A DNA stretch of 64,000 nucleotides from Bacteroides sp. (lineage in GTDB: Bacteria; Bacteroidota; Bacteroidia; Bacteroidales; Muribaculaceae). Location: contig JAAVDJ010000040.1 in assembly GCA_014801875.1 (NCBI GenBank), forward strand, positions 62,001 to 126,000, written 5' to 3'. The first letter of the stretch is position 1, and each line of letters starts with the position of its first letter. A program made the translations under genes and the position numbers. Positions 1-44,035 of the stretch are shown in pieces. The notes below the pieces were generated by a model. It was not told where the DNA came from. It searched no databases and saw only the letters and a list, made by a program, of their open reading frames with translations.

Positions 1-1029
1 TAGTGAAAGATTGGCTTCACTCGGGATGGCGAAAAGGTAATTGTTGGCGATGGTGTTCTGCACAAACTTATGTTCCCCACCGGTCAGGCTGACCACAGCC
101 CCTCCGGCTTCGGAAAAGCAGCAGCCATAGGCATCCACTTTCGCATATTTCGATTCCAGGACGGTGGTGCGGGAGTTATGAAGCCAACTGTTTGTCAATA
201 TCAGTTTACTGCGTGAAAGGTCGCCGCAGGAATCCACACGCAGACCTTCCTCCGTGGAACGCATGTCCACACACTCCATACGATTGCCAAATGAATTGGC
301 GCCGATTGAAATCCCTTTCCATTGTCCGGCCATGATGTCGTATGCCACGTCGGGAAGAACATTGTCAAGCCGGTCGCCACGGAAATCAATCTTCATGTCA
401 GGGGTGCCCACAGCCTCCAGCCGCCCTTCCACACGCATATCGGCTCCATCATGAAAAAGGAGCCGGGTGCCGGGGTCAAGGGTGAGGGTCGCTCCCTCGG
501 CTACGGTCAGCGAGCCGAAAACGACATAAGGCTGCTCGGCCGAAAAGCGGGTGTCTGAGTCTATTGTGACATCTTTCAGTCGGGTGACATTTACAGCCGT
601 CGCCTCCACCTCCACAGAGGAGACACTGCCGTTGACGGTAAACTCCAGATAATCGGTCACTGTGCGTGGCGCAGGAGAATCATCGGGAGCCACTCTGCAC
701 GCCAGAAAAAGATAGATGGAGTCGTTGCCGTTTATCTCCACATCATGGAAAACATCGCCGCTTACCCCGTCTACATTCACTGAAAAAGGGGAGTCTGGAG
801 CAAGAAACCTGATGGAGGATATACGAATGCCCTTCTTGTTATGATTGGCCACCACAAGACGCGCCGTAGGCGACACATCTCCTGTGAAGACTGTGCCGAA
901 ATCAACCGTCGGAGTGGAAAAAGAGATTTGTGCGTCAGGCGCATCCGTGAAGTCGTCACTGATGCATGAAGGAAAGAATAATCCAAAAAGGAGCGTGCAC
1001 GTCAATAAAACCGCATACTTTACGTTCAT
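1..1029 (-). CDS. Surface lipoprotein with beta-helix region, 3' end cut off by window
   Basis: The frame is open for 343 codons from an ATG at 1029 to the left edge, so the C-terminus is missing. The first residues form a lipoprotein signal (MNVKYAVLLTCTLLFGLFFPSC), with the lipobox Cys at about residue 22. Residues about 30-140 look like an ASH/DUF1573-type beta-sandwich (phrases such as STPTVDFGTVFTGD and LVVANHNKKGIRISSI). From about 155 on, the repetitive Gly/Asp/Val pattern (GSLTVAEGATLTLDPGTRL, then evenly spaced short strands) is what right-handed parallel beta-helix lipoproteins of Bacteroidota look like. A role on the cell surface is inferred; no enzyme motif is visible. It diverges from lpxB. 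I do not recognise a specific named gene. Confidence 0.75.
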   Translation of the reverse strand, partial: MNVKYAVLLTCTLLFGLFFPSCISDDFTDAPDAQISFSTPTVDFGTVFTGDVSPTARLVVANHNKKGIRISSIRFLAPDSPFSVNVDGVSGDVFHDVEINGNDSIYLFLACRVAPDDSPAPRTVTDYLEFTVNGSVSSVEVEATAVNVTRLKDVTIDSDTRFSAEQPYVVFGSLTVAEGATLTLDPGTRLLFHDGADMRVEGRLEAVGTPDMKIDFRGDRLDNVLPDVAYDIMAGQWKGISIGANSFGNRMECVDMRSTEEGLRVDSCGDLSRSKLILTNSWLHNSRTTVLESKYAKVDAYGCCFSEAGGAVVSLTGGEHKFVQNTIANNYLFAIPSEANLSL

Positions 1030-1159
1030 ATAATATAGAACGTCGTCCTCCCCCTGATATTGAACCGAAACAGGATATTTTCGGAGAAAAGACGGAGGGA
1101 AGCGCTTTGTGAAAGGCGTGACTTCAATGCCCAAAATCCATATTCATCTGAATCCGTCA

Positions 1160-2302
1160 ATGAAATATATGCTCGTAGCCGGCGAGGCATCCGGCGATCT
1201 TCATGCCTCCAACCTTATTACCTCTCTGAGAAAACTCGACCCGGACGCGGAGTTCCGCTTTTTTGGCGGCGACCTTATGGCTAAGGCTGCCCGCGTGAAT
1301 CCTGTCGTGCATTACGACCAGATGAACGTGATGGGATTTTCTGAAGTGTTCCGCAAGTTGCCCCGCCTCATGCGTCATCTGAAGACGGCTAAACAGGTGA
1401 TTGATGAATTCAGGCCTGATGTCCTCATTCTTGTGGATTATCCGAGCTTCAATCTGAAGCTCGCCAAATATGCCCACGATAAAGGGATAAAAGTGGATTA
1501 TTTCATCTCCCCGAAGGTATGGGCCTGGAAGGAATATAGAGTCAAGAAGATAAAGAAATGGGTAGACCATCTTTATTCAATACTTCCTTTTGAGGTGGAT
1601 TTCTATAAAGACCGCGGCTATACGGTGAAATACGTCGGAAATCCCTCTGTGCAGGAAATAGATTATGCCTTGGGTCACCTTCCTCCCAGAAAGCATTTTG
1701 TGGAGCGTCAGGGATTCGCTGACCGTGAGAAACCGATTATCGCTCTTCTCCCCGGCTCCCGTAAAGGGGAGATTCGCAACAATCTTCCTCTTATGATAGA
1801 GGCCGCAAAGAGATTCCCTGAGTTTCAATATGCGGTCGCTGCTGCTCCGGCTATCCCTGAGAAGTTCTATCGTGAAGTGGCTCAGGATCCGGGATTGCAG
1901 GTGGTTTTCGGCGCTACCCCCACTTTGGTGAAATATTCTCAGGCCGCGATCGTGACTTCCGGCACCGCTACTTTGGAGACTGCCCTCATAGGCACACCAC
2001 AGGTGGTATGTTATCGTGCCAACGGAAAGCGTCTGTCTTATATGATTATGGAGAAGCTCCTGAAGGTGAAATATGTCTCTCTTCCAAATCTCATAGTCAG
2101 AAACAGCATAGTGCCGGAACTCCTGGTGCATCTCTGCACAGTCGATGCCATAGCCCGTGAACTCAAACCTCTGCTGATGAAGTCGCCGCGCCGGGATGAC
2201 CAGCTCGCCGGTTATCGCACAATGCGGCGCCGGCTCGGTAATATCGTGGCCAGCGACTATGCAGCCGAGCTTATTACGGATCATCTCAAAGGGGACTCCT
2301 GA
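1160..2302 (+). CDS. lpxB: Lipid-A-disaccharide synthase
   Basis: LpxB is a GT19 glycosyltransferase at the inner membrane that joins UDP-2,3-diacylglucosamine and lipid X to make the disaccharide of lipid A. The protein (380 aa, normal for the family) opens with MKYMLVAGEASGDLHASNL, the conserved N-terminal GEASGD signature. It also carries FFGGDLM, LVDYPSFNLKLAK, PKVWAWKEYRVKKI, LLPGSRKGEI and SGTATLETAL, all typical of LpxB. Longer in-frame starts exist at 1109 and 1127, but the family begins at MKY, so I place the start at 1160. The gene stands alone and converges on the GH31 gene across a strong bidirectional terminator. The usual partner surE is not next to it here. Confidence 0.95.
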   Translation: MKYMLVAGEASGDLHASNLITSLRKLDPDAEFRFFGGDLMAKAARVNPVVHYDQMNVMGFSEVFRKLPRLMRHLKTAKQVIDEFRPDVLILVDYPSFNLKLAKYAHDKGIKVDYFISPKVWAWKEYRVKKIKKWVDHLYSILPFEVDFYKDRGYTVKYVGNPSVQEIDYALGHLPPRKHFVERQGFADREKPIIALLPGSRKGEIRNNLPLMIEAAKRFPEFQYAVAAAPAIPEKFYREVAQDPGLQVVFGATPTLVKYSQAAIVTSGTATLETALIGTPQVVCYRANGKRLSYMIMEKLLKVKYVSLPNLIVRNSIVPELLVHLCTVDAIARELKPLLMKSPRRDDQLAGYRTMRRRLGNIVASDYAAELITDHLKGDS

Positions 2303-2334
2303 ATTGCAAATCCAATAGAGTCTCAGACAAAAAA

Positions 2335-2382
2335 TAGGGTTATAAGGTGTGTGAGGTGATACCTCAACTCCTTATAACCCTA
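2335..2382. terminator. Nested bidirectional terminator between lpxB and GH31
   Basis: A perfect 13-bp inverted repeat TAGGGTTATAAGG (2335-2347) / CCTTATAACCCTA (2370-2382) encloses a second 6-bp hairpin TGAGGT-GAT-ACCTCA (2352-2366). It is flanked by A/T runs on both sides and sits between two convergent genes. Confidence 0.85.
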
Positions 2383-2427
2383 AAATATTATCGGGCCGGA
2401 GGCCTCGTGTGTTTTCCTGTCGGACGT

Positions 2428-4866
2428 TTACTTCATCTTGACGGTCAACGGGGTGTTGGCGTAGGGGAAGCGGACATAAAGCGTGCGTGTGGCCTCGTCA
2501 TAGCTCCAGCCATACTGGCGTATCATCTTGACGCTCATCATCTCAGGCATATCTGTGCCGTCTGAGAGTGTCACTTCCTTAGGCTTGGCCACATCCATCA
2601 CCTGCATGGTCAGCATCCTGACAGCGGGCATATCTTCGTATTTACCCTCGCTCTTAATTGAGATTTCAGTCTCGTTCCCTTTCACTTCCCCTGTGAACTG
2701 AGTGAGCTGATATGCTTTGTCAGCTATGGAAGTGGGGGAGATGCGGTTGTCGTCATAGAGAGTGTAGCTTGTCTTTTCCCCACTCTTTCCGGGATAGTAG
2801 CGAATGGTGAGCACTCCGGGATTATACTGGGTGACATTCTCTATCGGCATTTCAAACTGAGGAACGAACGATCCCGCCTTTACAAAGAGGGGGAGAATAT
2901 CAATAGGAGCGGGCACGGTCGCCTCCGTACCTCCCTGATAACGCTCCTTGGCATCATACCAGCTGATCCATTCTCCTGCCGGGAAGAGAACCTTGCGCGA
3001 AACCGCTCCCTGCTCCATTACGGGAGCCACAAGCACCTCGCTCCCCCAGAAATACTCGTCATCAACACGCGCATATTTCTCGCCGGGATTTGAGCCGTCG
3101 AAGTTGAGCGGACGCACCAGCGGATAACCCTTTGTAGAGTTTTCGAACGCCAGGGTATAGTTGTAGGGGAGCCATTCATATCGCATATTTATGAATTTCT
3201 TCAGAATCTCCTCGCTCTCCGGATAATGGTAGGGCTCTGCTTGATATGTGGCGTGTGTACGCATAACGGGTGTGAAAGCACCCATAGCGACCCAACGGAG
3301 ATAAAGCTCCTCGTCACGCGGATTCTTGGGGTCTACGGCAAAACCGCCAAGGTCGGAGCTCATATAGCCGAGGCCGGAAAGACCTGACGAAAGCATGAGA
3401 TTGACCTGAGGTCTGTAGCCGCCCCAGGAGCGAGACACGTCTGTGGTCCAGGGGAAAACGCTGTAACGCTGAAGTCCGGCTGTCCCGCCGCGCATCATAA
3501 GGAGAGGACGCATATCGGGATAATCCTTACGCAGACCTTCGTAGATGAGGCGGCTCCACTCATTGCCATATACGTTATGATACTGAGGTGCGGTTTCTCC
3601 GTTGGCATGAACGATTGAACGGGGATGAACCTCAGGCTCTCCAAGGTCGCCCCACCAGCCGGCAATGCCGTCGGCGGTAAGGTCTTTCAGGCGATTCCAG
3701 AGCCATTCCCTTGTTTCGGGATTGCTGACGTCTATCATTCCGGCGTCACCGACCCATGTGGTCACGTCGTGAGTGTTTCCTGCTGAATCTTTAGCCAGCA
3801 TTCCGCGCTCCGAGAGATAGTTGTAGTTGTCTATCGCTCCGATCTTGTTCATGTAAGGCTGGGAGATGGTCACGGTGTTGACGCCACGAGCCTTCAGGTC
3901 AGCGAGCATCTTCTTATGGTCAGGCCATTGCTCTTTGTTCCATTCCAGACGACCCATATCCGTCTCCTTGCCATACCAATAGAGGTCGAGCACGATACCG
4001 TCGACCGGGAATCCGGCATTCTTCAGGGAGTCGATGGCTCCGACAGTCTCTTTTTCATTGTGGTAGCCATATTTGGAAGTGATGTAGCCGAGGCTCCATA
4101 CGGGAGGAAGATCCTGACGTCCGGTCAGAAGTGTGTATCCCTCGGTGGCTCCGGCGAGTGTGCCGTTTCCGTTGATGAAATAGTATGACAGAGGTTTGGG
4201 GGTGTCGGAGGTATAGGTCACGGTGTCGCCGAGCACGAGCAAAGCCTCGTTGTAATCATCGAACAGGACGCCATACCCCTTGTCGGAGACATAGTAGGGG
4301 GCGGAGATACCCATCTGTGAGATGCGCGGGTCGCCTGCGGTATATCCGTAGTTCTGGCGGTTATACATTGTGAGGGAGTCGCCGTTGAGCACGGGGGAAT
4401 GCCCTCTCTCTCCTCCGCCATAGATAAATTCACCCTCCATTCCGGCGAGAGTCACGGTCTTGACCCCGTTGGAGTTGTCGACACCCTCCACTTCAGAGAG
4501 GATGAGGTTGCCGGCCGGGTCAAGGAAGGTCACCTTTCCGGTGGAGTGGTCTATGCGGGCGGTTGTCGTGGGGGTAGACACATAAGTGGCATCCTTCTCC
4601 ACTTTTGTTGTGGTCACAACCTCCTGAGGCTTCAGTATAGCCGATTGTGAGTGTGTGCATTTCTGCTCCGCACCCGCCGGGCGGTTAGTGACGCGGAAGA
4701 TGTCGGAGGTGAGTGGCAACACGTTGACCACCCCTTTCGAAGTCTTCACATCGACACCCTTCCCTTTGTCGCACCCCGCGCAGACGTTATGCTGTGCGAC
4801 ACTTACGGTCGAAGACAGGAGGAGGACGCTCAGCGCCACTCCTGTCAATATTATATTCTTATTCAC
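2428..4866 (-). CDS. Glycoside hydrolase family 31 (alpha-glucosidase/xylosidase type)
   Basis: This 812-aa secreted or periplasmic glycosidase starts at a GTG; an in-frame stop lies a few codons upstream and no ATG intervenes. Residues 1-25 are a signal peptide ending at VSVAQ. After an N-terminal beta-sandwich (to about 250), the GH31 barrel carries VDGIVLDLYWYG, the nucleophile region WWGDLGEPE, and FPWTTDVSRSWGGY with the likely acid/base Asp. A C-terminal DUF5110-like sandwich follows. GH31 enzymes hydrolyse alpha-glucosidic or alpha-xylosidic bonds; the exact substrate cannot be read from the sequence. No SusC/SusD pair is nearby, so it is not part of a typical polysaccharide utilisation locus. 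It lies 31 bp behind the carboxynorspermidine dehydrogenase gene and may be co-transcribed with it. Confidence 0.92.
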   Translation of the reverse strand: MNKNIILTGVALSVLLLSSTVSVAQHNVCAGCDKGKGVDVKTSKGVVNVLPLTSDIFRVTNRPAGAEQKCTHSQSAILKPQEVVTTTKVEKDATYVSTPTTTARIDHSTGKVTFLDPAGNLILSEVEGVDNSNGVKTVTLAGMEGEFIYGGGERGHSPVLNGDSLTMYNRQNYGYTAGDPRISQMGISAPYYVSDKGYGVLFDDYNEALLVLGDTVTYTSDTPKPLSYYFINGNGTLAGATEGYTLLTGRQDLPPVWSLGYITSKYGYHNEKETVGAIDSLKNAGFPVDGIVLDLYWYGKETDMGRLEWNKEQWPDHKKMLADLKARGVNTVTISQPYMNKIGAIDNYNYLSERGMLAKDSAGNTHDVTTWVGDAGMIDVSNPETREWLWNRLKDLTADGIAGWWGDLGEPEVHPRSIVHANGETAPQYHNVYGNEWSRLIYEGLRKDYPDMRPLLMMRGGTAGLQRYSVFPWTTDVSRSWGGYRPQVNLMLSSGLSGLGYMSSDLGGFAVDPKNPRDEELYLRWVAMGAFTPVMRTHATYQAEPYHYPESEEILKKFINMRYEWLPYNYTLAFENSTKGYPLVRPLNFDGSNPGEKYARVDDEYFWGSEVLVAPVMEQGAVSRKVLFPAGEWISWYDAKERYQGGTEATVPAPIDILPLFVKAGSFVPQFEMPIENVTQYNPGVLTIRYYPGKSGEKTSYTLYDDNRISPTSIADKAYQLTQFTGEVKGNETEISIKSEGKYEDMPAVRMLTMQVMDVAKPKEVTLSDGTDMPEMMSVKMIRQYGWSYDEATRTLYVRFPYANTPLTVKMK

Positions 4867-18540: not shown

Positions 18541-19128
18541 ATGAAAAAAAAGATAGTGATTTTCTTTCTGCTCCTCCTCTTGGCCATAGCCATAGGGTTA
18601 GGGGGCTGGGTGTGGCATTCTGAAGAGACGCCCGATGATGGTATGCAGCTTCGCGAAGCCCGCATCAAGGGGATTAGGGAGATGATTGAACTCTGCACTC
18701 TCGATGTGCATGAAGAAATTGCAATAAAAGATTCAGTCAACGGGAAATGGCTCGTGGCGCGCCAGACATTCGAAGGGCGTGTCCGTTTTGACCTCGATAG
18801 TCTCCGGGTAGAGGAGAGGGGAGATACGCTTGTGGTCACTCTTCCTCCGGAAAGAGTGGATGTCATGGAGAGCGCTGACAAGAATGCATATAAGGTGCTT
18901 GATTCATGGGATGGTTCACGTGTGCTTTTCCCGCGCACCATGACCGCCGGAGAGGAAAATATTATAAAGCGTCGTTGGCAGAAGAAAGCTAAGGAGAGAA
19001 TCTATCAGCGTGGCTACGTGCGTCAAGCGCGTGAAGACGCAAAGAAGACTATCATCTCTCTTTTTGAGGCAACCGGGCGCCCGGTTGTCATCCTCGACCC
19101 TCTTCCCGCTTCCCAACGCCTCGAATAA
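18541..19128 (+). CDS. DUF4230-like membrane-anchored protein, second of the pair
   Basis: The 195-aa protein has an N-terminal membrane anchor (residues 3-26, IVIFFLLLLLAIAIGLGGWVW) with no lipobox. Its soluble region parallels its neighbour: REMIELCTLDVHEEIAIKDS, a VARQTFEGRVRFDLDSL segment, VVTLPPERVDVME and a long C-terminal helix. The LPPE/LPPI motif and overall order suggest the two are anciently duplicated, one lipid-anchored and one helix-anchored. Role unknown. Confidence 0.72.
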   Translation: MKKKIVIFFLLLLLAIAIGLGGWVWHSEETPDDGMQLREARIKGIREMIELCTLDVHEEIAIKDSVNGKWLVARQTFEGRVRFDLDSLRVEERGDTLVVTLPPERVDVMESADKNAYKVLDSWDGSRVLFPRTMTAGEENIIKRRWQKKAKERIYQRGYVRQAREDAKKTIISLFEATGRPVVILDPLPASQRLE

Positions 19129-19166
19129 CCCCACAATAAATTTTATAGTTTTTTATATTCTTTCCC

Positions 19167-19197
19167 TTGATTTGTATTGTAAATTGCACTATTTTTG
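19167..19197 (+). promoter_or_regulatory. Promoter of the RelB/DinJ-PIN pair
   Basis: TTG at 19167-19169, 20 bp, TATTTTTG at 19190-19197, then a start near 19204 and a short leader to the ATG at 19217. Confidence 0.65.
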
Positions 19198-19216
19198 CAG
19201 TACAAAAATTATTATT

Positions 19217-19534
19217 ATGTCACAATCAACAATTTCTATTAGAGTTGATCATACATTGAAAAGTAAGTTTGACTCACTCTGTGAAACCTTTGGCCTAACT
19301 ACTTCAGCTGCATTTCATATATTTATGAAAGCGGTAGTAAGAGAACGTCGTATCCCATTTGAGATTAAGGCGGATGAGAATGCTGATCTTAGGAAGCATG
19401 CAATGGATGCTTTTGAAAGCTTGCGGGAACAAGCTGCTGCTGCTAACTTGTCGAACATGACATTGGAAGAAATTAATGAAGAAATCAATTCTGCCCGCAA
19501 TGAAAGGAGAAAAGCAAATTTATGCGGTAATTGA
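19217..19534 (+). CDS. RelB/DinJ-family antitoxin
   Basis: The 105-aa protein opens with a ribbon-helix-helix DNA-binding domain (TISIRVDHTLKSKFDSLCETFGLTTSAAFHIFMKAVVRERRIPFEI), the typical RelB/DinJ arrangement. An acidic, helical tail (LEEINEEINSARNERR) would wrap the toxin. A longer open frame from 19010 is excluded by the promoter and by overlap with the DUF4230 gene. It overlaps the PIN toxin gene by 35 bp. Antitoxins of this type repress their own promoter. Confidence 0.9.
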   Translation: MSQSTISIRVDHTLKSKFDSLCETFGLTTSAAFHIFMKAVVRERRIPFEIKADENADLRKHAMDAFESLREQAAAANLSNMTLEEINEEINSARNERRKANLCGN

Positions 19535-19937
19535 TACTAATGTGTTGGTCTCTTCCTTATTATCTTCAAGTAAAGAATCCAATCCTGCAATAGTTATTTC
19601 AAGTATTATCAACGGAGGTATTATCCCACTATACAATGAGGAAATCCTATTGGAATATAAGGAAGTGTTGACACGGAAAAAGTTTAAATTTTCACTTCAT
19701 ACGATTGATGTCTTAATTTCAACCTTTAGAATAGTAGGTCTAAATGTAAACAGGACAAAGGTGATGAAGGAAAGTTTTCCCGATCCGGATGATATTGTTT
19801 TCTATGAAGTAAAAATGAGTGTAGATGACAGCTATCTTGTGACAGGAAATATAAAACATTTCCCACATTCGCCTTTAGTTGTGACTCCTTTCCAGATGGT
19901 GCAAATTCTAAAGGAGAAAGGAATATTAGCGAGATAA
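19500..19937 (+). CDS. PIN-domain toxin (COG1569-type)
   Basis: The 145-aa protein is a PIN-fold ribonuclease of the putative-toxin COG1569 group. It has YAVIDTNVLVSSLLS at the start (D12 is the first acidic metal ligand), an acidic residue in YNEEILLEYKEVLTR, and FPDPDDIVFYEV with VTGNIKHFP supplying the remaining acidic cluster and the C-terminal family motif. PIN toxins cleave RNA, often tRNA. It lies in the normal antitoxin-first order. I chose the ATG at 19500 because the family begins right before the hydrophobic first strand. Confidence 0.88.
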   Translation: MKGEKQIYAVIDTNVLVSSLLSSSKESNPAIVISSIINGGIIPLYNEEILLEYKEVLTRKKFKFSLHTIDVLISTFRIVGLNVNRTKVMKESFPDPDDIVFYEVKMSVDDSYLVTGNIKHFPHSPLVVTPFQMVQILKEKGILAR

Positions 19938-28409: not shown

Positions 28410-28489
28410 TGGTACGTTACCGCATCATCGAATACCCTGGCGCGCATCAGGATACGTTTTTGCACATACATAATTTTTATAATCAATTT

Positions 28490-28521
28490 TTTGGTTATTT
28501 AATAAAATTTAATTTACTTTG
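28490..28521 (+). promoter_or_regulatory. Probable promoter of the C10 protease-serpin operon
   Basis: TTTG at 28490-28493, 20 bp, TTACTTTG at 28514-28521, one mismatch from TAnnTTTG. The start near 28528 gives a leader of about 213 nt. Confidence 0.5.
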
Positions 28522-28741
28522 CATCTGAAACAACAATTAAAACAAAGACATTATACGACGATTGTTCTAATTGCTCATCTTTTATATACTATTCGTTCCC
28601 TATGCGGATACACATGAAGTGTTACCACACTCACCACTTCAAAAGGATGAGGTCTATGTCATTCCCATATACGTGGGAAATCACCACTGTTATACTACCC
28701 TACCAACTGTAGGATTTCAAATTATTAAATAACTTTAAGTC

Positions 28742-30175
28742 ATGAAAAAATTACTTATCTTCGCAACGCTCCTTCTGTTCTTAGGAGCATGCAGCCAGCA
28801 GGAGGATATGACCCCTGACTCGCCACAGCTTGCTGAGTCTGATCCTTTCACAGGCACCGCCCACGACATATACGTGAATATCCTCACCAACCGATTCGGT
28901 GGGTATAATAAAAATAAGCCTAAGACACGTGCTGAAGCAACCTTCTCAATCATTCCCTATGTTGAGGAGGGTGATACCTTGATGTATATCGTGCAGTATG
29001 AAAAGGGATGGGAACTTTACTCTGCTTCTAAAGCCACCAACATGCTCATTTTCTCTTCCGATGAGGGGATCTTCGATATGAATGATAAAAATATGCCGGA
29101 TGGTTTGCGCACTCTGATCAAAATGAATTGTGAGAGAATCAAAGAAGCCCAACTTTATTTATCTACCAAAATAGATAATAGTTGGACTATGGAAACTTCT
29201 AAATCGAATTTAAATCAAGGAACAGCAAAAGTAAAGAAAAATGGTATTGAAAAGACAGTAGCTGTTTCCGATCTTCCCCCGGGATATTGGAGATTGGTAA
29301 AAACTGAATTAATCTCAGAAAATATAACCTATTCACCAAGACTAATTAAAACTTTTTGGGATCAAGAAACCCCTTGGAACACCTATTCTAAATATTTAAT
29401 AAATAAGAATGGCGTAAAGGAATTAGCACTGGCAGGGTGTTCCGTTATTGCTGTGGGACAATACCTTTACTATACCCATTATAAGGATAATGTACCGTCT
29501 TCTACAGTAACTACTGCGATTTCTTCATCAAATGGAATGGATTTTGATTTTTCAGGAAACAGTACAACTGTATGGGATGAAATGCCTACTTACACATCCT
29601 CAACTTCAATATCAAAGCCGGCAGCAATATTTATAGGATATATTGGTAGACAACTCAATGCAAACTACACGTTAGATGGCACCAGGGTTAGTATTCCAGC
29701 AGAACTCCAATTTCTAAAAAATGTGTTTGGTGTAAACTTTACAACATCTGCGGTCAACAAAAACTACATTATAAATTCAATAGACAAAGGATATCCTGTG
29801 CTGTCTCACGCTGAAACAAATAAATTAGAAAATGGAACTCCTATAGATAAAGATGGTCATCTTTTCTTAATTGATGGATATAAAAAGATTACAAAAGAAT
29901 ATATGTATTATTACGTTTATGAGAGAGAACCTTGGAATGGTGATGGCCCTGATCCTTGGGATGATGATGAACGTGATGAGAATGGAAATATCATTGATTA
30001 CAGTATTAAAAAAGAAGAAAGTCAATATCAGTCTACCTATGCAATCTACATGAATTGGGGCTGGGGTAAATATTCCGGGAATAACGTGGCATATTGGCCG
30101 GAAGCGGATGAATGGTTAGCCGGTTATAATTTTAATTTGAATCATTTAATCTACAAACGTGACGACATCAAGTAA
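28742..30175 (+). CDS. C10-family (streptopain-like) cysteine protease lipoprotein
   Basis: The 477-aa protein is a lipoprotein (MKKLLIFATLLLFLGAC, Cys17) with an N-terminal prodomain of about 200 residues and a C-terminal papain-fold domain. Catalytic residues match streptopain: C233 in LALAGCSVIAVGQ (cf. ATGCVATA of SpeB), H373 in DGHLFLIDGYK, and the oxyanion-side Trp motif NWGWG at 438-442, so activity is expected. C10 proteases are secreted or surface endopeptidases; the Bacteroides fragilis Bfp proteins and B. thetaiotaomicron homologues are relatives. An insertion rich in Asp/Asn (GDGPDPWDDDERDENGN) lies between His and Trp. It is AT-rich and followed after 17 bp by a serpin gene. Confidence 0.9.
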   Translation: MKKLLIFATLLLFLGACSQQEDMTPDSPQLAESDPFTGTAHDIYVNILTNRFGGYNKNKPKTRAEATFSIIPYVEEGDTLMYIVQYEKGWELYSASKATNMLIFSSDEGIFDMNDKNMPDGLRTLIKMNCERIKEAQLYLSTKIDNSWTMETSKSNLNQGTAKVKKNGIEKTVAVSDLPPGYWRLVKTELISENITYSPRLIKTFWDQETPWNTYSKYLINKNGVKELALAGCSVIAVGQYLYYTHYKDNVPSSTVTTAISSSNGMDFDFSGNSTTVWDEMPTYTSSTSISKPAAIFIGYIGRQLNANYTLDGTRVSIPAELQFLKNVFGVNFTTSAVNKNYIINSIDKGYPVLSHAETNKLENGTPIDKDGHLFLIDGYKKITKEYMYYYVYEREPWNGDGPDPWDDDERDENGNIIDYSIKKEESQYQSTYAIYMNWGWGKYSGNNVAYWPEADEWLAGYNFNLNHLIYKRDDIK

Positions 30176-30192
30176 TTAAACATCTGATTATT

Positions 30193-31458
30193 ATGAAACT
30201 TTTAAATCTTTTTTGCGGTATTGCAGTTTGCCTTCTGGGGACCACCGCTTGCTCTGATCACCATGAGCCAAACGAACTCTCTCCAAACAAACGAGGAGAT
30301 ATAGCTCTTTCTGTGAAATCGAAAGAAGCCTCAGTTGAATTATTGGATTTCTATACCGATTTTACAACTCAAGCTATTGAGATGAATCTGAATAATAAAG
30401 AGAAAACAGATAAAAACACCATTGTCTCTCCTCTGTCCACAGCCATGCTTCTGGGCATGATTGCTAATGGAATGGAGGATAAGAATGAGGTGCAAAAGAT
30501 TGCAAACTATATTGGTGTTTCTGACATGAAAGCTCTCAACGAGCTTTCCCGTACTCTCCTGACGTCACTCCCCTCTGTCGACAATCAATCAGAATTTATA
30601 CTCAAAAATGCAATATGGGCGAATAAGGATCTGAGTTTTTTCGACACTTTCTCCTCAATAATGAGTCAGGATTATCAAGCAAAGTTGGAGCTTAATGATT
30701 TCTCTAATGAAAAAGAAGTAGTGTCGACAATCAACCGATGGTGTAGTGACCAGACAAACGGTAGGATTACCACAGCTATCGACAATATAAGTGCTTCGGA
30801 TCTTGCAATCCTTATAAATGCAATTTTATTCAGGAGCAAATGGGAAAATGAATTTGAATTTGACGTTAAAGAGACTAAAAAAGCATCTTTCCATGGATTT
30901 AGTAAGCAAACAACTGCCGATTTTATGGTATCCTCCAGAAAAAGACGCTGGTATAGTGTCAGCCCAAATTTCTCAAGCTGCACTCTAAGTTTGGGCAACG
31001 GAGCCTTCTATCTAAATTTAGTTTTACCCGATGATAAAATGTCGCCTGATAAAATCAGCCATCTCTACAATAAAGAGGAAGCCATTGCATTATCAGAAAG
31101 CAGTCAGCAGTGTTCTGTAATAGTCGAAATTCCTAAGTTCAAGTTAAACGGAACATTTGATCTAAAACAGTTGCTTGAAAAAGCCGGTGTGATTTCAATG
31201 TCTGAATCAATTCTTTGGTCAATGTTTAGTCCGACTGCCGAGGGTGGGCTGATAATGAAACAGAATACAAGTTTTGAAATTGATGAAAAAGGGGCAACGG
31301 CAGCGGTTGTATCAGTGGGGGAAATGACTAATAGTGCTTTGCCGATTGATCCCAATAAAGAATACACAATGGTCTTTGACCGTCCGTTCTACTTCTTTTT
31401 ACGCGAGACAAGCACCGGCACTTGCCTTCTCTCAGGCTTGATTGCCGATATTGATTAA
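30193..31458 (+). CDS. Serpin-family protease inhibitor lipoprotein
   Basis: The 421-aa protein is a lipoprotein (LLGTTAC, Cys20) with a full-length serpin fold: NTIVSPLSTAMLLGMIANGM, LILNAILFRSKWENEF-type helix/strand (here ILINAILFRSKWENEF), VEIPKFKLNGTFDL, the hinge EIDEKGATAAVVSVG (362-376) and FDRPFYFFLRE at the C-terminus. The small-residue hinge (GATAA) is typical of inhibitory serpins. Counting from Lys366 as P16 places P1 around Ser381 and P1' at Ala382, so a small-residue-preferring protease is expected; this is inference. Position 17 bp behind the C10 protease suggests a protease-inhibitor unit. Confidence 0.92.
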   Translation: MKLLNLFCGIAVCLLGTTACSDHHEPNELSPNKRGDIALSVKSKEASVELLDFYTDFTTQAIEMNLNNKEKTDKNTIVSPLSTAMLLGMIANGMEDKNEVQKIANYIGVSDMKALNELSRTLLTSLPSVDNQSEFILKNAIWANKDLSFFDTFSSIMSQDYQAKLELNDFSNEKEVVSTINRWCSDQTNGRITTAIDNISASDLAILINAILFRSKWENEFEFDVKETKKASFHGFSKQTTADFMVSSRKRRWYSVSPNFSSCTLSLGNGAFYLNLVLPDDKMSPDKISHLYNKEEAIALSESSQQCSVIVEIPKFKLNGTFDLKQLLEKAGVISMSESILWSMFSPTAEGGLIMKQNTSFEIDEKGATAAVVSVGEMTNSALPIDPNKEYTMVFDRPFYFFLRETSTGTCLLSGLIADID

Positions 31459-31481
31459 GCTCCATCATCCGATATATTTTC

Positions 31482-31508
31482 CGACGGCGTCCTCGATGGA
31501 TGCCGTCG
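31482..31508 (+). terminator. Hairpin after the serpin gene
   Basis: CGACGGC (31482-31488) / GCCGTCG (31502-31508), a perfect 7-bp stem 24 bp past the stop. No strong T-run follows, so terminator function is uncertain. Confidence 0.4.
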
Positions 31509-31540
31509 ACTTTATGAATCCTTTTAAGACCGTTTCCCAC

Positions 31541-31736: not shown

Positions 31737-34226
31737 ATGAATATCTCTTACAAGTGGCTTAAACGCTACATAGATTTTTCCCTGTCTCCACGTGAGCTCA
31801 CTGCGGCACTGACTTCTTTAGGGCTTGAATGTGACCACGTTGAGGAAGTGGAAAGCATCCGTGGAGGGCTCCGCGGAATCGTGATAGGTAAAGTCCTCAC
31901 ATGTGAGGAGCATCCAAATTCAGACCATCTCCACATCACCACCGTAGATCTCGGAGCGGGAAACGTCCAGCAGATTGTCTGCGGCGCGCCGAATGTAAAC
32001 GCAGGCCAGACTGTTGTCGTGGCGACTGTAGGAACAACCCTCTACGACGGTGACAAGGAGTTTCAGATAAAAAAATCCAAAATCCGTGGCGTCGAATCCA
32101 ACGGTATGATATGTGCCGAAGATGAAATTGGAATCGGCACTGACCATGCCGGGATAATGGTGATTTCCGAGGAAGTCGCCCCCGGTACCCCCGCGGCTGA
32201 GTTTTTCAATGTCGAAAGCGACTACTGTCTTGAGGTGGAGCTGACCCCCAATCGTGTCGATGCAGCAAGTCATCTCGGTGTAGCCCGCGATCTTAAAGCT
32301 CTCTTTACCCGCGAAGCTTTTGAGAAAAATCCCGAATCAGACCTTCCGGAAATTTGTGTGCCGGATGTTGAGAATTTCTCGGTTGACCGTCCTGACGGTG
32401 CTGTTGAGATTGTGGTCGAGGATGCCGCTGCGTGTCCTCGCTACTGTGGCGTCACAATCCGTGGCGTTGAGGTGAAGGAATCTCCCGAATGGCTCCGTAA
32501 TCTTCTTATGGCGATCGGTCAGCGACCCATCAACAATATCGTTGACATAACCAACTTCATCCTTAACGGCATCGGTCAGCCCCTCCACTGCTTTGATCTT
32601 TCTAAAGTGAAGGGTGAGAAGATTGTTGTGCGCAAATGTGCTCAGGATACGCCTTTCACCACTCTTGACGGCGTGGAGCGGAAGCTCTCTGCCGAAGATC
32701 TGATGATTTGCGATGCTGAAGAGCCGATGTGTATCGCCGGTGTCTTCGGGGGGCTCGACTCCGGAGTGACGGAAGCCACCAAGGATGTCTTCATCGAGAG
32801 CGCATATTTCAACCCTACTTCAGTGCGCCTCACAGCGCGTCGCCACGGCCTCAGCACTGACGCCTCTTTCCGTTATGAGCGTGGCGCCGACCCCTCTATC
32901 ACTGTCTATGCCGCCAAACTGGCAGCCCTTCTCATCAAGGAGCTGGCCGGAGGTGAGATTTGCGGTGATATAATGGATGTGTGTGCCGAGCCCGTGAAGA
33001 GGGCGGAGGTGGAGCTTTCCCTTGATTATTGCGCATCCCTTATTGGAAAGAGAATCCCCGAACCTCTTGTCACAGCTATCCTCCGCTCCCTCGACATTAC
33101 AGTGGAGAAGGACAGCTCCAATCCTGATATCCTCCATCTCTCAATCCCGACCTATCGTGTGGACGTCACTCGCCCCTGCGATGTTGTCGAGGAGATTCTC
33201 CGTGTCTACGGATATAATAATGTGGAGTTCGGCTCTGAGATGCACGCCAATCTCTCTCCCGAGGGGGACACAGATCTCAGCTATCGTCTTCAGCAGCTCG
33301 TCAGCAATCGTCTCACCGGCGAGGGTTTCATGGAGATTCTCAACAACTCCCTTTCCGCAGCCTCTTATTATGAAAAATCGGAACGCTTCCCCTCCGACAA
33401 CTGTGTGCGCCTGATGAATCCCCTCAGCGGAGATCTCTCCGTGATGCGTCAGACTCTGCTCTTCGGTGGTCTGGAATCGATTTCCCATAACATCAACCGT
33501 AAGGCGCCCAACCTCCGATTCTATGAGTTTGGAAATGTCTATCGCAAAGATTCTTCGAAGGAGATTTCTGAGGAGCGTCCGCTCGCTCCCTTCTCCGAAC
33601 AGATGGAGCTTGCCCTCTGGATGACCGGAGATTTCGCCCTCCCGTCCTGGAATGTCAAGGCTGCCGAAGTTTCGGTGTTCGACCTCAAGGGGATAGTTCT
33701 TAACATCTTCAAGGTGCTCGGGCTTTCAGAGAATGCCTATACCTGTACTCAGGATTCCGATGAAATTTTCTCCGCGCGCCTTGAAATCACAGCGCGCTCA
33801 GGTAAGAAAATCGGTGAGCTCGGCATTCTCCGGATGGAGCTTCTCAAGCGTTTCGACATAAGTCAGGGTGTGGTGTTCGCTCAAATCGATTGGAATAATC
33901 TCTTCCGTCTTGTAGCGAAACATCAGGTCACTTTCGCTCCCCTGCCGAAGACGCAGCCCGTCAGACGCGACCTTGCTCTCCTTGTCGACACAGATGTCAA
34001 GTTTGCCCGTATCGAGGAAACTGTCTGCAAGGCTGAGCGCAAGCTTCTCCGCAGTGTGACCCTCTTCGATGTCTACGAAGGGAAGAATCTTCCGGCCGGC
34101 AAGAAGAGCTACGCAATCTCCATCACACTTCAGGATGATGAGAAGACTCTCAACGACCGTCAGATCGACGCCGTAATGCAGAAAATAATCAACGCACTCC
34201 GCCAGATGGGTGCGGAACTCAGATAA
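31737..34226 (+). CDS. pheT: Phenylalanine--tRNA ligase beta subunit
   Basis: PheT forms the alpha2-beta2 synthetase with PheS, binds tRNA and edits mischarged Tyr-tRNA. The 829-aa protein begins MNISYKWLKRYIDFS, with the EMAP/tRNA-binding domain (about 40-150, EEHPNSDHLHITTVDLG, QIVCGAPN). The B3/B4 editing domain (RPINNIVDITNFILNGIGQP, FTTLDGVERKL, DASFRYERGADP), the B5 domain, and a C-terminal FDX-ACB domain (FAPLPKTQPVRRDLALLVD, LFDVYEGKNLPAGKKSYAIS) follow. pheS is not nearby, which is usual in Bacteroidota. yebC follows after 33 bp. Confidence 0.96.
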   Translation: MNISYKWLKRYIDFSLSPRELTAALTSLGLECDHVEEVESIRGGLRGIVIGKVLTCEEHPNSDHLHITTVDLGAGNVQQIVCGAPNVNAGQTVVVATVGTTLYDGDKEFQIKKSKIRGVESNGMICAEDEIGIGTDHAGIMVISEEVAPGTPAAEFFNVESDYCLEVELTPNRVDAASHLGVARDLKALFTREAFEKNPESDLPEICVPDVENFSVDRPDGAVEIVVEDAAACPRYCGVTIRGVEVKESPEWLRNLLMAIGQRPINNIVDITNFILNGIGQPLHCFDLSKVKGEKIVVRKCAQDTPFTTLDGVERKLSAEDLMICDAEEPMCIAGVFGGLDSGVTEATKDVFIESAYFNPTSVRLTARRHGLSTDASFRYERGADPSITVYAAKLAALLIKELAGGEICGDIMDVCAEPVKRAEVELSLDYCASLIGKRIPEPLVTAILRSLDITVEKDSSNPDILHLSIPTYRVDVTRPCDVVEEILRVYGYNNVEFGSEMHANLSPEGDTDLSYRLQQLVSNRLTGEGFMEILNNSLSAASYYEKSERFPSDNCVRLMNPLSGDLSVMRQTLLFGGLESISHNINRKAPNLRFYEFGNVYRKDSSKEISEERPLAPFSEQMELALWMTGDFALPSWNVKAAEVSVFDLKGIVLNIFKVLGLSENAYTCTQDSDEIFSARLEITARSGKKIGELGILRMELLKRFDISQGVVFAQIDWNNLFRLVAKHQVTFAPLPKTQPVRRDLALLVDTDVKFARIEETVCKAERKLLRSVTLFDVYEGKNLPAGKKSYAISITLQDDEKTLNDRQIDAVMQKIINALRQMGAELR

Positions 34227-34259
34227 TTAACACAACAACTATCATAAATCTCTCTATCA

Positions 34260-34976
34260 ATGGGAAGAGCATTTGAATATCGCAAAGCAAGAAAACTGAA
34301 ACGTTGGGGCAATATGAGCCGCACCTTCACACGCATCGGTAAGGAAATCACTATCGCAGTGAAGGCCGGCGGTCCGGATCCCGACATGAACCCCCGTCTG
34401 CGTGTGCTCATGCAGAATGCCAAGGCTGCCAATATGCCGAAAGATACTGTTGAGCGTGCTATCAAGAAAGCCACTGACAAGGATGCCGGCGACTACAAGG
34501 AAATTGTATATGAAGGATACGGCCCCCACGGAATTGCTATCGTAGTAGAGACAGCTACTGACAACAACCAGCGCACTGTAGCCAACGTGCGTTCTTATTT
34601 CAACAAGCATGGCGGTTCCCTCGGCACCCAGGGTTCTCTCTCCTTCCTCTTCGACCATAAGAGCGTTTTCCATGTGAAACCCAATGCCGACACCTCTCTT
34701 GAGGATTTCGAGCTAAATCTTATGGACTTTGATGCCGAAATCGAGGCTGAAGATGAGGAATGGCTCATTTATGGCGCTTTCGACCAGTTTGCCAACCTCC
34801 AGAATTTCCTTGAGGAGAACGGGCTTGAAATCGTCTCTGCTGAATTCGAGCGTATACCCAACGACTATAAGGAGGTGACTCCCGAACAGCGCGAAGCAAT
34901 CGAGAAGCTTCTTGAAAAATTTGAAGACGACGAAGATGTCCAGAATGTTTTCCACAACATGAAGGAAGAGGAGTAA
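34260..34976 (+). CDS. yebC: YebC/PmpR (TACO1)-family protein
   Basis: The 238-aa protein has the three-domain YebC/TACO1 pattern: MGRAFEYRKARKLKRWGNMS, FTRIGKEITIAVKAGGPDP, AANMPKDTVERAIKKATDKD, YEGYGPHGIAIVVE, TATDNNQRTVANVRSYFNKHGG and GSLSFLFDHKSVF. The family was long annotated as a transcriptional regulator; work on relatives supports a role in relieving ribosome stalling, for example at prolines. The residue W in RWGNMS replaces the more usual sequence of other phyla and is typical of Bacteroidota. It is 33 bp behind pheT and ends at an intrinsic terminator. Confidence 0.94.
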   Translation: MGRAFEYRKARKLKRWGNMSRTFTRIGKEITIAVKAGGPDPDMNPRLRVLMQNAKAANMPKDTVERAIKKATDKDAGDYKEIVYEGYGPHGIAIVVETATDNNQRTVANVRSYFNKHGGSLGTQGSLSFLFDHKSVFHVKPNADTSLEDFELNLMDFDAEIEAEDEEWLIYGAFDQFANLQNFLEENGLEIVSAEFERIPNDYKEVTPEQREAIEKLLEKFEDDEDVQNVFHNMKEEE

Positions 34977-35076: not shown

Positions 35077-36612
35077 ATGATACGTATTCCCCGCAAATTC
35101 CTGATTATCCACATATTCCTCCTGATTCTGTCATTCGCTCTCTCGGCCTGTCGGGAAAATCCGGAGAAAGCAAAATTAATGGAGGGGGAGAGAATTGTGG
35201 GCCACCAACCGGATTCGGCACGGAAAATCCTGAAATCTATCGACACCACGCGCCTTTCCGCCGATGACAAAATGCTCCGCCGCTTATTCCTTCTGCAAGC
35301 GGCCGACAAACTTTACGAAGAACATAAAAACGATAAGGAGATTTCGACTCTCATAGATTATTTCATCACCCGAAACCATGTGAAAAGAGTGCATCCGCTC
35401 GTCAATTATTATGGAGGGCGCGTATATACAGACTTAGGGGATGACAAGAAGGCACTCAAATTTTTTAAGGATGCACTTAAATCCCTGCCTCCGGCAACCG
35501 ATACTGACCTGGAGGGTTGCATCCACACTCCGCTCGCTTATTTATATATGGCTCACAGAATGTATCTGCACAGTCGTAATCACATTCAGGAAGCCATACG
35601 TCTTTCCAAACAGGAGAATAATCTTGTAAATCTCATTGAAGGGAGTCTCAATCTCGCCGATTTGTATATTTACCAACAGCAGATGGATTCGGCGGAATAT
35701 GTCTATAGGAATCTTACTCCATACGTCAATGAATGTAAGGATTCAGTAACCACCAGCACTTACTATTCTCAGCTCGCCATATTCTATTTCTATGACGGAA
35801 ATCTTGAGAAAGCTGACTCTGTGCTCCGTCAGCACACTTTCGTCTATGATGATATTTCGCGGGCATCGGTGCTTTCAATCATAAATAAGATTAATCATGC
35901 GTGCCATGGGGAGAAGATTGATGAGGAGCTTTATGAAAGCCTGTTGAACGACCGCGACCAGACTCTGAGATATGCCGCTCATATCCGTCTGGCAGAGATG
36001 GCGGAGCAGAAAGGGGATGGAAAGGGGATGTTGAGATACACCAAGGGAGCCCTCCGGGAGTTGAGATCAATGCAGAAGAAGTTCAACAGGAACAGTCTTG
36101 CGGAAATGGAGAAAATGATCGATGAGAAGGAACTTGAGAACACTAATCTGCAATTGACAATCGACAATCATAAAAAGCGCAACCTCATTCTCTTCATAAC
36201 TATTCTTGCAATATTGATTATCGGAATATGTCTCGCGTTCATAATAAGGGGGCGTCTGAAGGTGATGAAGATTCAGATGGATGCCTACATGACCTTGGCC
36301 CGGGAAAAAGAGAACATCATGAGGCTTCTTTTAGATGGGAACCAGACTGTCTCGGAAACGGACTTCACACGTCTTCGGGAAGCTCTGAGAGAGGTGTATC
36401 CTAATTTTATCCTGACAATCGACGGAATGGGACTGAAGCCAAAAGATTATCAGGATGCGCTGCTGGCAAGGATCGATGTGCCTCAAAAAGTTTGTGCGTC
36501 ATTTTTCGGTGTCACACCGGGTGGAATATCTAATCAACGGCGTCGGTTGTTACAAAAATGGCAACCGGATGGACCCTTCCACACATGGAAAGAATATCTC
36601 GACTCCCTTTAG
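35077..36612 (+). CDS. TPR lipoprotein with transmembrane helix and C-terminal HTH-like region
   Basis: The 511-aa protein begins with a lipoprotein-like signal (FALSAC, about residue 25) and has tetratricopeptide-like repeats over about 50-330 (YYGGRVYTDLGDDKKALKFF, GSLNLADLYIYQQQMDSAEY, YYSQLAIFYFYDGNLEKADS). A coiled stretch, a membrane helix at about 369-388 (NLILFITILAILIIGICLAF) and a cytoplasmic tail of about 110 residues follow. The tail includes DYQDALLARIDVPQKVCASF and FGVTPGGISNQRRRLLQKW, which looks like a helix-turn-helix with a recognition helix. This is the layout of a membrane-bound sensor-regulator common in Bacteroides; the signal is unknown. No adjacent target operon is obvious. 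Confidence 0.78.
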   Translation: MIRIPRKFLIIHIFLLILSFALSACRENPEKAKLMEGERIVGHQPDSARKILKSIDTTRLSADDKMLRRLFLLQAADKLYEEHKNDKEISTLIDYFITRNHVKRVHPLVNYYGGRVYTDLGDDKKALKFFKDALKSLPPATDTDLEGCIHTPLAYLYMAHRMYLHSRNHIQEAIRLSKQENNLVNLIEGSLNLADLYIYQQQMDSAEYVYRNLTPYVNECKDSVTTSTYYSQLAIFYFYDGNLEKADSVLRQHTFVYDDISRASVLSIINKINHACHGEKIDEELYESLLNDRDQTLRYAAHIRLAEMAEQKGDGKGMLRYTKGALRELRSMQKKFNRNSLAEMEKMIDEKELENTNLQLTIDNHKKRNLILFITILAILIIGICLAFIIRGRLKVMKIQMDAYMTLAREKENIMRLLLDGNQTVSETDFTRLREALREVYPNFILTIDGMGLKPKDYQDALLARIDVPQKVCASFFGVTPGGISNQRRRLLQKWQPDGPFHTWKEYLDSL

Positions 36613-42417: not shown

Positions 42418-43029
42418 ATGAAACAGGCCATAATATCGAAAGTCAATCGTAGCAGGAAGGGGACAATCTTCTTGTCGGATAGTTTTTTGCCCATTGATAC
42501 CCATTACGCCTCCAATATTTTATCGGAACTGTGTAATGCCGGTAAACTCGTCAGAGTCGCAACCGGGATATATGTTAAGCCAAAGATGTCAAGGTTTGGA
42601 CCTGTGATGCCTACAATCGGCGAAATTGCGCAAACCATAGCAAAACGTGATGATGCACAACTATTGCCAACAGGAGCTACTGCCGAGAACTATCTCGGTT
42701 TTTCAACACAGGTTCCAATGAACGCCGTATATCTTACATCAGGTACTCCTCGAAAAATAAAGATTGGCCGAAGGGCTTTGACGCTTAAACATAGTGTGCC
42801 GTCAACATTTGCCTATAAGGGTAAAATTTTGCCTATATTAGTGCTTGCACTAAAATCTATCAAGCAGTATAACATTGACACTGAAATCCTTGATATTGTT
42901 TATGGAGTATTGAAGGACAATCCTGAGGACGACACTTGGCATGAGGATATAGCCCATGCTCCACGCTGGATTAGAAAAATAGTAATCGAAACAAAAGAAA
43001 AAATCAAACGAAATGAGCAGATGGATTGA
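42418..43029 (+). CDS. AbiEi-type antitoxin (DUF6088 family)
   Basis: The 203-aa protein has an N-terminal winged-helix (GTIFLSDSFLPIDTHYASN, ILSELCNAGKLVRVATGIYV), as in AbiEi antitoxins. A C-terminal domain follows (LPTGATAENYLGFSTQVPM, VYLTSGTPRKIKIGRRAL, PILVLALKSIKQYN) typical of the DUF6088/AbiEi group of Bacteroidota. AbiE systems are type IV toxin-antitoxin modules that give abortive infection against phage; the antitoxin represses the promoter. It overlaps the toxin gene by 17 bp. Codon use is more AT-rich than in the neighbouring lipid genes, suggesting acquisition. Confidence 0.88.
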   Translation: MKQAIISKVNRSRKGTIFLSDSFLPIDTHYASNILSELCNAGKLVRVATGIYVKPKMSRFGPVMPTIGEIAQTIAKRDDAQLLPTGATAENYLGFSTQVPMNAVYLTSGTPRKIKIGRRALTLKHSVPSTFAYKGKILPILVLALKSIKQYNIDTEILDIVYGVLKDNPEDDTWHEDIAHAPRWIRKIVIETKEKIKRNEQMD

Positions 43030-44035
43030 CGCTTCGGATGCAGACCGCCAGCAGTCGGCTTACATCATAGCAACCGAAAAGAATATTAGCGAAGGTGCAG
43101 TTGAAAAAGACTGGTGGGTAACTGCCATTCTGAAAGTGCTGTTTTCTCTTTCGCCGGCTAAATATATGTTCTTTAAGGGAGGTACAAGCCTCAGTAAAGG
43201 ATGGAACTTGATAGACCGCTTTTCGGAAGATATCGACATCGCACTATATCGTGACTTCTATCTCGATATTTTGGGTAAAGAATGTGCCAAAGCATCCACG
43301 AACAATCAGGTCAAGAATCTGCGTATTGCCAATCGCGATTATATCCTTGGCGAATTTACAGAGGAATTGACTACGAAACTCAATGAAGCTGGATTGAGCG
43401 AAGGTCTGGTTGTACCGATAACGACAAAAAAGGATGGCTCACCAATCGACCACGATAGCGACCCGGTAATCATTGAAATTCATTATCCGGTTAAGATTAG
43501 CTCTGATGCCTATGTTCGCCCCGTTGTCAAGATTGAGATAAGTTGTCTTTCGATGAAAGAGCCTTACGAAGTCAAGCGCATATCTTCTCTTGTTGGAGAG
43601 GCGTTTCCTCAAATTGACGCTGAGACCATTGCCGACATTCCGACTATAATGCCAACGCGCACATTTCTTGAAAAAGCGTTTCTGCTAAACGAAGAATATC
43701 AGCGAAAGAATCCTCGTACCGAGCGCATGAGCCGACACCTATATGATTTGGAACGGCTAATGGATACACAATTTGCGGAGGCCGCATTGTCAGACATGGA
43801 TCTATATCACGAAATCATTGCACACCGTCAGCGATTCTATCATGTTGGTGGTGTCAATTATGAACTCAACCACCCGTCAACAATCACATTTTGCCCCACA
43901 GGAGATTTGCGAGAAAAGATGCGACTTGACTACGAAGCAATGAAAACCTCGATGATTTACGGCGAAAAGCTGGACTTTGAATCACTAATTGCCAGACTGG
44001 AACAACTGCAAAAGTATTTTAAATCAATCAGATAA
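43013..44035 (+). CDS. AbiEii-type nucleotidyltransferase toxin
   Basis: The 340-aa protein is a nucleotidyltransferase-fold AbiEii/AbiGii toxin: EKDWWVTAILKVLF, the substrate-binding KGGTSLSKGW (55-64) and the metal-binding pair D73/D75 in RFSEDIDIALYR. Additional family regions are VVIEIHYPVKISSDAYVRP-like (here PVIIEIHYPVKISS) and HLYDLERLMDT. Family members transfer nucleotides, in some cases to the 3' end of tRNA, and arrest growth. Partner AbiEi lies directly upstream with overlapping reading frames. Confidence 0.9.
   Translation: MSRWIDASDADRQQSAYIIATEKNISEGAVEKDWWVTAILKVLFSLSPAKYMFFKGGTSLSKGWNLIDRFSEDIDIALYRDFYLDILGKECAKASTNNQVKNLRIANRDYILGEFTEELTTKLNEAGLSEGLVVPITTKKDGSPIDHDSDPVIIEIHYPVKISSDAYVRPVVKIEISCLSMKEPYEVKRISSLVGEAFPQIDAETIADIPTIMPTRTFLEKAFLLNEEYQRKNPRTERMSRHLYDLERLMDTQFAEAALSDMDLYHEIIAHRQRFYHVGGVNYELNHPSTITFCPTGDLREKMRLDYEAMKTSMIYGEKLDFESLIARLEQLQKYFKSIR

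Follow-up and report, generated by a model that had tools for sequence, protein, structure and literature searches.

A serpin lipoprotein gene follows a compact C10 protease gene in Muribaculaceae and may encode its inhibitor

INTRODUCTION

Why would a surface cysteine protease gene be followed directly by a serpin gene? Peptidase family C10 genes are known to be cotranscribed with small inhibitor-like genes (PMC3462683). Inhibition of papain-fold proteases by serpins is established in general (PMC8233489, PMC8201313, PMC7863939): gingipain K is inhibited by miropin and papain by a C. thermocellum serpin (PMC8201313), and staphopains are inhibited by SCCA1 (PMC7863939). A pairing of C10 and serpin was not found in the portions of open-licence PMC papers that were searched. 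Streptopain homologues are discussed in the S24-7 genome paper, whose main text does not contain the word "serpin". The pair studied here lies in a window of 64,000 nucleotides (contig C40, positions 62001 to 126000, of a 2.14-Mb genome that is 76% complete). We asked whether the serpin could be a dedicated inhibitor of the protease beside it.

RESULTS

The protease gene (positions 28742 to 30175, forward strand) encodes a 477-aa lipoprotein with a signal peptide and lipobox in aa 1 to 17 (LGAC-SQQ, by inspection), a propeptide-like region at aa ~38 to 190, and a streptopain-fold catalytic domain at aa ~195 to 477. It matched the Pfam model Peptidase_C10 (PF01640) with 70.5 bits (cut-off, 26) and conforms to the fold of the streptopain zymogen. 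On the same strand lie the codons for the catalytic Cys233 (TGT, 29438 to 29440) and His373 (29858 to 29860) and for the NWGWG motif, Asn438 to Gly442 (30053 to 30067). C233, H373, and N438-W439 were invariant across 9 aligned window-type C10s. All 27 C10-like proteins with a length of ≥300 aa retained the catalytic Cys column and likewise the lipobox cysteine; of the 25 C10-like proteins that reach the later columns, 24 retained His and 23 retained Asn. The window protein is clearly a member of family C10 with intact active-site residues, and it is predicted to be proteolytic. The initial annotation of a streptopain-family lipoprotein with these residues was thus upheld.

The serpin gene begins 17 bp downstream on the same strand (30193 to 31458) and encodes a 421-aa protein with its own lipobox (TTAC-SDH, by inspection) and a match of 193.4 bits to the Pfam model Serpin (PF00079; cut-off, 27). 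The best PDB match of the modeled protein was native miropin (5ncs; E value, 3.7e-29). Its hinge, EKGATAAVV (aa 365 to 373; 31285 to 31311), starts at E365 and departs from the inhibitory consensus ExGTEAAAA (PMC8233489) in having Ala for Thr at P14 and Val at P10 and P9. By inspection against this consensus, the hinge is of the inhibitory type. The variable reactive-center loop follows at aa 374 to 392 (31312 to 31368), with a predicted P1-P1' of Ser-Ala when lined up with miropin. The conserved C-terminal tail (89 bp) and the 57 bp 3' of the gene (together 31370 to 31515) are shared with a second locus described below, and a stem-loop was seen by inspection in those 57 bp (31482 to 31508). 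With both a serpin fold and such a hinge, the protein is a candidate suicide inhibitor. Coordinates, Pfam score, lipobox, and hinge all agreed with the earlier description of a full-length, inhibitory-type serpin lipoprotein 17 bp after the C10 gene.

To see how often the two genes go together, we built a profile from the window C10 and its counterpart at the second locus and ran it on 397 family genomes, 116 of which matched at an E value of ≤0.001. We examined the 19 Muribaculaceae-like genomes with a best C10 match of at least 55 bits. A serpin gene lay next to the best window-type C10, downstream and on the same strand, in 17 of the 19, counting one locus in which the serpin (L048) and one in which the C10 (L058) is split by a stop. 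A scan of named organisms found a serpin next in 9/9 loci, 8 of which belong to genomes already included (only L194 was new); the named relatives were uncultured Muribaculaceae/Porphyromonadaceae metagenome-assembled genomes (MAGs), a Duncaniella MAG with two loci, and a MAG carrying the name Bacteroides sp., which makes a gut bacterium of the Muribaculaceae type the most likely host of the window. For the sampled loci, gene calling relied on open frames, profiles of our own, and a simple pattern for the lipobox (inspection by eye for L285, L333 to L336, and L339); 20 family loci were chosen as window-type.

The view from the serpins was different. Of 297 family genomes, 124 contained serpins and 273 contained C10s. 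We sampled 60 serpins, taking approximately every second one of the matches listed for the 397 genomes below the window-type clade (once two neighboring ones). A C10 sequence lay directly upstream on the same strand in 13 of these 60 (binomial P = 2.9e-19 at an assumed chance rate of 0.4% per gene and 3.3e-14 at 1%) and in the same cluster in 18 (the 13 plus L127, L135, L138, L147, and L171); the clusters of the other 42 sampled among the matches listed held none. Five of the 60 (L135, L142, L156, L159, and L164) have <500 bp of upstream DNA, and the 13 include a C10 N-terminal piece only (L180), a partly masked C10 (L162), and a shortened C10 404 bp away (L141). Across the order, a C10-like gene was found in 0 of the 30 top-scoring serpin loci (mostly with ~1.3 kb of upstream DNA, a few with less) and in 0 of 20 chosen among lower-scoring listed matches. 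An order-wide spread of the pair was thus not seen in the 50 loci sampled. The initial annotation had held that serpins lying mostly apart from C10 genes would refute a protease-inhibitor unit, and this test gave a divided result. Most sampled serpins do lie apart, in the family as in the order, but nearly all window-type C10s examined have one, so the link is protease-centered, and the unlinked family loci indicate that serpins have other uses there too. We conclude that the link is real and, as sampled, limited to this family.

We then turned to what follows compact C10 genes that have no serpin. In other Bacteroidales families, all 8 compact C10s taken (each the best of its genome; L284 to L291) had a lipoprotein gene ≤69 bp downstream. 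Six of these partners belong to one divergent family of 155 to 180 aa with a "GNDLL" motif, found in three tandem copies in L287, and the other two are lipoproteins of 276 and 242 aa. Nine partner proteins from this set were scanned, and none scored above a Pfam or NCBIfam cut-off. A fresh check of 7 further C10 frames of <500 aa yielded 5 compact lipoproteins (L333 to L336 and L339; L335 and L339 contain an internal stop) and 2 large C10s cut by a contig end (L337 and L338), which were dropped. The next gene encoded a lipoprotein in 5/5, of 295 aa in one, of the GNDLL type by eye in three (155, 160, and 156 aa), and of 177 aa, twice in tandem, in one; tandem partner copies were thus seen in L287 and L336. 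In total, 13 of the 13 compact C10s examined in other families adjoin an exported lipoprotein gene. The four window-family compact C10s that lack a serpin (L061, L063, L067, and L069) each have an exported gene ≤55 bp downstream, two encoding secreted proteins and two encoding lipoproteins. Around large C10s, a lipoprotein gene within 100 bp was found in 0/20 and a secreted non-lipoprotein gene in 3/20; for 6 of the 20, no same-strand downstream gene was found within the stretch examined. Where no serpin is present, unrelated exported proteins occupy the slot. This suggests a requirement of the protease itself, and no other observation hints so strongly that the gene downstream of a compact C10 serves it.

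We compared the divergence of the two proteins in 29 linked pairs. Distances between C10 catalytic domains correlated with distances between serpins (r = 0.68; 0/5,000 shuffles), a figure that includes shared species ancestry, and propeptide distances did so as well (r = 0.71). The identical nearest neighbor was indicated by C10 and serpin in 13 of the 29 pairs; the window pair is not among them. Reactive-loop distance tracked catalytic-domain distance only weakly (r = 0.15; 26/5,000 shuffles), and we set aside loop covariation as a test of specificity. The loop (aa 376 to 392) was the least conserved of six serpin regions in these 29 serpins (mean pairwise identity, 0.14); the hinge (aa 364 to 375) and the C-terminal tail were the most conserved (0.43 each). 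In one linked serpin, that of L135, the hinge is broken. The C10-like proteins of diverged copies are only 19 to 51% identical to the window C10, and gene order and adjacency are kept.

The genome from which the window comes contains four serpins and several C10s, as judged by a profile search of the genome. Its large C10s are on contigs C10, C11, C20, and C43, none of which was found to carry a serpin, and both of its compact C10s (contigs C40 and C18) adjoin serpins. The second, diverged pair, L015, has the order two TPR/DUF6377-like genes, 116-aa secreted protein, serpin A, C10, and serpin B. Its C10 had no match in hmmscan yet scored 44.3 bits in the genome search. At their 5' ends, the two loci are 82% identical in DNA across a 404-bp stretch that begins 43 bp before the C10 start and ends at approximately aa 119. 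The catalytic-domain sequence and the greater part of the serpin gene gave no DNA match. Similarity then returns (78%) in the final 89 bp of the serpin gene and the 57 bp that follow, stem-loop included (31370 to 31515 against L015 9072 to 9220, 77.9% over 154 columns). By codon, aa 1 to 40 are alike in DNA (11/13 fourfold sites), aa 41 to 120 mainly as protein (5/16), and the core at neither level. A similar break occurs between the two pairs of G300 (41/60 fourfold sites up to aa 190 and 15/40 after). Among five two-pair genomes compared, the mosaic was clear in two (G000 and G300), partial in G215, and absent in G128 and G294.

The shared DNA also extends upstream (28457 to 28742, forward strand), with 77% identity over 167 bp (L015 4281 to 4447) and 76% over 93 bp (L015 4652 to 4743), and runs into a decayed small gene. 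In L015, the intact counterpart (4379 to 4729) encodes the 116-aa secreted protein, which had no Pfam match at an E value of ≤0.1; in the window, a remnant lacking ~200 bp is left (28555 to 28726, forward strand). An intact small inhibitor gene of about 116 to 138 aa was not found at the window locus. The initial annotation that no Spi/staphostatin-type inhibitor is visible therefore holds for intact genes, but a small-gene remnant, at most that of a candidate inhibitor, precedes the C10 gene. We considered assigning the small upstream proteins to DUF3244 and rejected this, since one of five tested (L144) reached the Pfam model. That protein, a small secreted DUF3244 protein in a serpin locus (L144 10164 to 10520), scored 28.7 bits (cut-off, 25). 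The sequence TTACTTTG at 28514 to 28521 is presumably promoter-like, as judged by inspection.

Base composition had suggested acquisition of the pair. The C10 gene (37.4% GC) and the serpin gene (39.7%) are indeed AT-rich compared with the window (49.6%); within the pair, GC content is 44.7% for C10 aa 1 to 120, 34.9% for the rest of C10, and 46.7% for the serpin tail. However, the C10 gene was more AT-rich than its flanks in all 11 other pairs measured, so AT-richness is a family trait that says little by itself about acquisition, and we rejected it as the sole argument for a recent event. The site offers a second clue. A PheT search of 41 genomes of the genus gave a match in 39. G329, the closest relative sampled by this measure (86%), has the block aminotransferase, vWA protein, Nudix, YebC, PheT, TPR protein, and kinase without the pair; a C10-serpin pair of that genome is located elsewhere (L114). 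The absence of the pair from this site weakly supports acquisition of the window pair.

Other features lie around the pair. The pheT-yebC segment (31737 to 34976) is inverted relative to G329, and the C10-serpin pair lies at one of its borders. A TPR protein resembling DUF6377, below the Pfam cut-off, is encoded at 35077 to 36612 (forward strand) and is possibly a regulator linked with the pair. TPR-type proteins were found ≤4 kb from the serpin in 12 of 81 serpin-bearing loci, a count in which four of these loci had supplied the five seed proteins. In L015, the two TPR/DUF6377-like genes (797 to 4226) lie directly upstream of the locus. From the list of open reading frames, we take two genes at 42418 to 44035 to resemble an AbiEi/AbiEii-type toxin-antitoxin pair and those at 19010 to 19937 to resemble a RelB/DinJ-type antitoxin and a PIN-domain toxin.

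Broken copies were also seen. In seven clusters, a full-length serpin follows a C10 remnant or a truncated C10. A C-terminal C10 remnant precedes the serpin in L107, in L121, in L110 and L111 (the latter nearly a copy of the former), and in L114, whose small gene continues into the C10 tail. Serpin A of L015 is preceded by such a remnant as well, a short one of 14 bits. The C10 of L125 lacks the Cys part, and that of L180 is reduced to its N-terminal part. The reverse case, an intact C10 with a broken serpin next to it, occurred once (L108). Other broken serpins were present in the clusters of L054, L115, and L194; both genes are broken in L123, and L126 has a broken C10 without a serpin. Because the assemblies are drafts, a single stop may be an error; a large deletion is less easily explained in that way.

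DISCUSSION

We put a probability of about 0.5 on the reading that the serpin serves as the inhibitor partner of a surface C10 protease, the two genes forming an operon of protease and dedicated inhibitor. The window C10 would be made as a self-inhibited zymogen and would mature at the outer membrane. The neighboring serpin would present its loop as bait on the same membrane and trap protease that turned on the producing cell, replacing the Spi/staphostatin-like inhibitor that known C10 operons encode. The initial annotation proposed just such a unit with a replaced inhibitor class; the recurrence of the pair, the correlated distances, and the other exported partners in the slot favor it, and the predominance of unlinked serpins does not. 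We also count in its favor the conserved hinge beside a highly variable loop and the seven clusters with a damaged C10 before a full-length serpin, against one of the reverse kind. A serpin is consumed 1:1 and is thus a costly guard. We also count against a guard the four compact C10s of the window family that lack a serpin, the weak loop correlation, the agreement of nearest neighbors in only 13 of 29 pairs, the broken hinge of L135, the broken serpins of some clusters, and the 3/20 large C10s that have a secreted non-lipoprotein gene close by.

In the main rival reading, the serpin acts on foreign proteases, from the host gut or from neighboring cells, and the C10 on foreign proteins, the shared operon bringing together surface tools for one niche. 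We consider this a doubtful but serious possibility. Miropin, the best structural match, inhibits host proteases and plasmin (PMC8201313, PMC8233489). Most sampled serpins, in family and order alike, stand apart from C10s, loop distance tracks catalytic-domain distance weakly, and serpins are kept once the protease is lost; such retention would also be expected if only the serpin were useful. Yet a serpin aimed elsewhere would less readily explain why it follows nearly every window-type C10 examined when the serpins sampled across the order show no C10 link, why unrelated exported proteins occupy the slot in its absence, or why the distances of linked pairs correlate.

Two further explanations fare less well. 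A contact-type weapon, in which the surface C10 attacks related neighbors, the serpin confers immunity, and cassette exchange diversifies the pair, would fit the mosaic of the two pairs in the source genome (DNA-alike ends around a core without a DNA match), the similar 5' pattern in G300, the orphan serpins with C10 tails, and the tandemly repeated partner genes of L287 and L336. We regard it as improbable: the mosaic was clear in only two of five two-pair genomes, lipoprotein anchoring limits reach, and degradation of host proteins is what the related C10s SpeB and interpain are known for (PMC4936053). Least probable of all, in our judgment, is that the two genes are operon neighbors without functional interplay, held together by coregulation and gene conversion. 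Any gene pair could be spread by the sequences that the loci share upstream and at the 3' end, but order and adjacency persist across strongly diverged copies, and the partner-slot rule speaks against this explanation too.

The reading of a dedicated inhibitor can be extended. Compact surface C10s of Bacteroidales may form a class with a required but exchangeable exported partner as immunity protein, a serpin in Muribaculaceae and the 155- to 180-aa GNDLL lipoprotein and others elsewhere, with a core that diversifies by cassette recombination. We offer this tentatively and think it unlikely to hold in full. If it did, serpins would be among the immunity proteins of bacteria. The conserved pairing in itself gives each linked serpin a candidate target and allows the question to be tested for each pair separately. 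It would also show that different inhibitor folds can be recruited to one slot by bacterial C10 proteases, and it predicts that the unassigned lipoproteins beside other compact C10s are inhibitors.

Several known systems resemble the locus in part. The window C10 is 16 to 20% identical, over the aligned part, to the zymogens of interpain A and SpeB and differs in being a compact lipoprotein with a serpin next to it. Polymorphic toxin-immunity cassettes also combine a conserved 5' end with a variable core and downstream partner and leave orphan partners with remnants; window-type pairs differ in that the mosaic is clear in only two of five genomes and in having no known delivery apparatus. Miropin of Tannerella forsythia, besides being the closest solved structure, has a similar E-M at P5-P4 of the loop. 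It is a broad inhibitor of host proteases and gingipain K, and the excerpted description gives no C10 neighbor (PMC8201313), whereas the window serpin adjoins a C10 gene. The closest parallels are bfp/bfi and btp/bti of Bacteroides and SpeB-Spi, in which a C10 gene likewise adjoins a cotranscribed inhibitor-like gene (PMC3462683). The known Bti partners are small (116 to 138 aa) with predicted beta-sheet structure, whereas the window partner is a 421-aa serpin lipoprotein with a decayed small gene upstream of the pair. Like a Spi/staphostatin-type operon, the window locus places a gene of an inhibitor class beside the protease gene on the same strand, and we read the C10-serpin pair as a version of the known protease-inhibitor operon.
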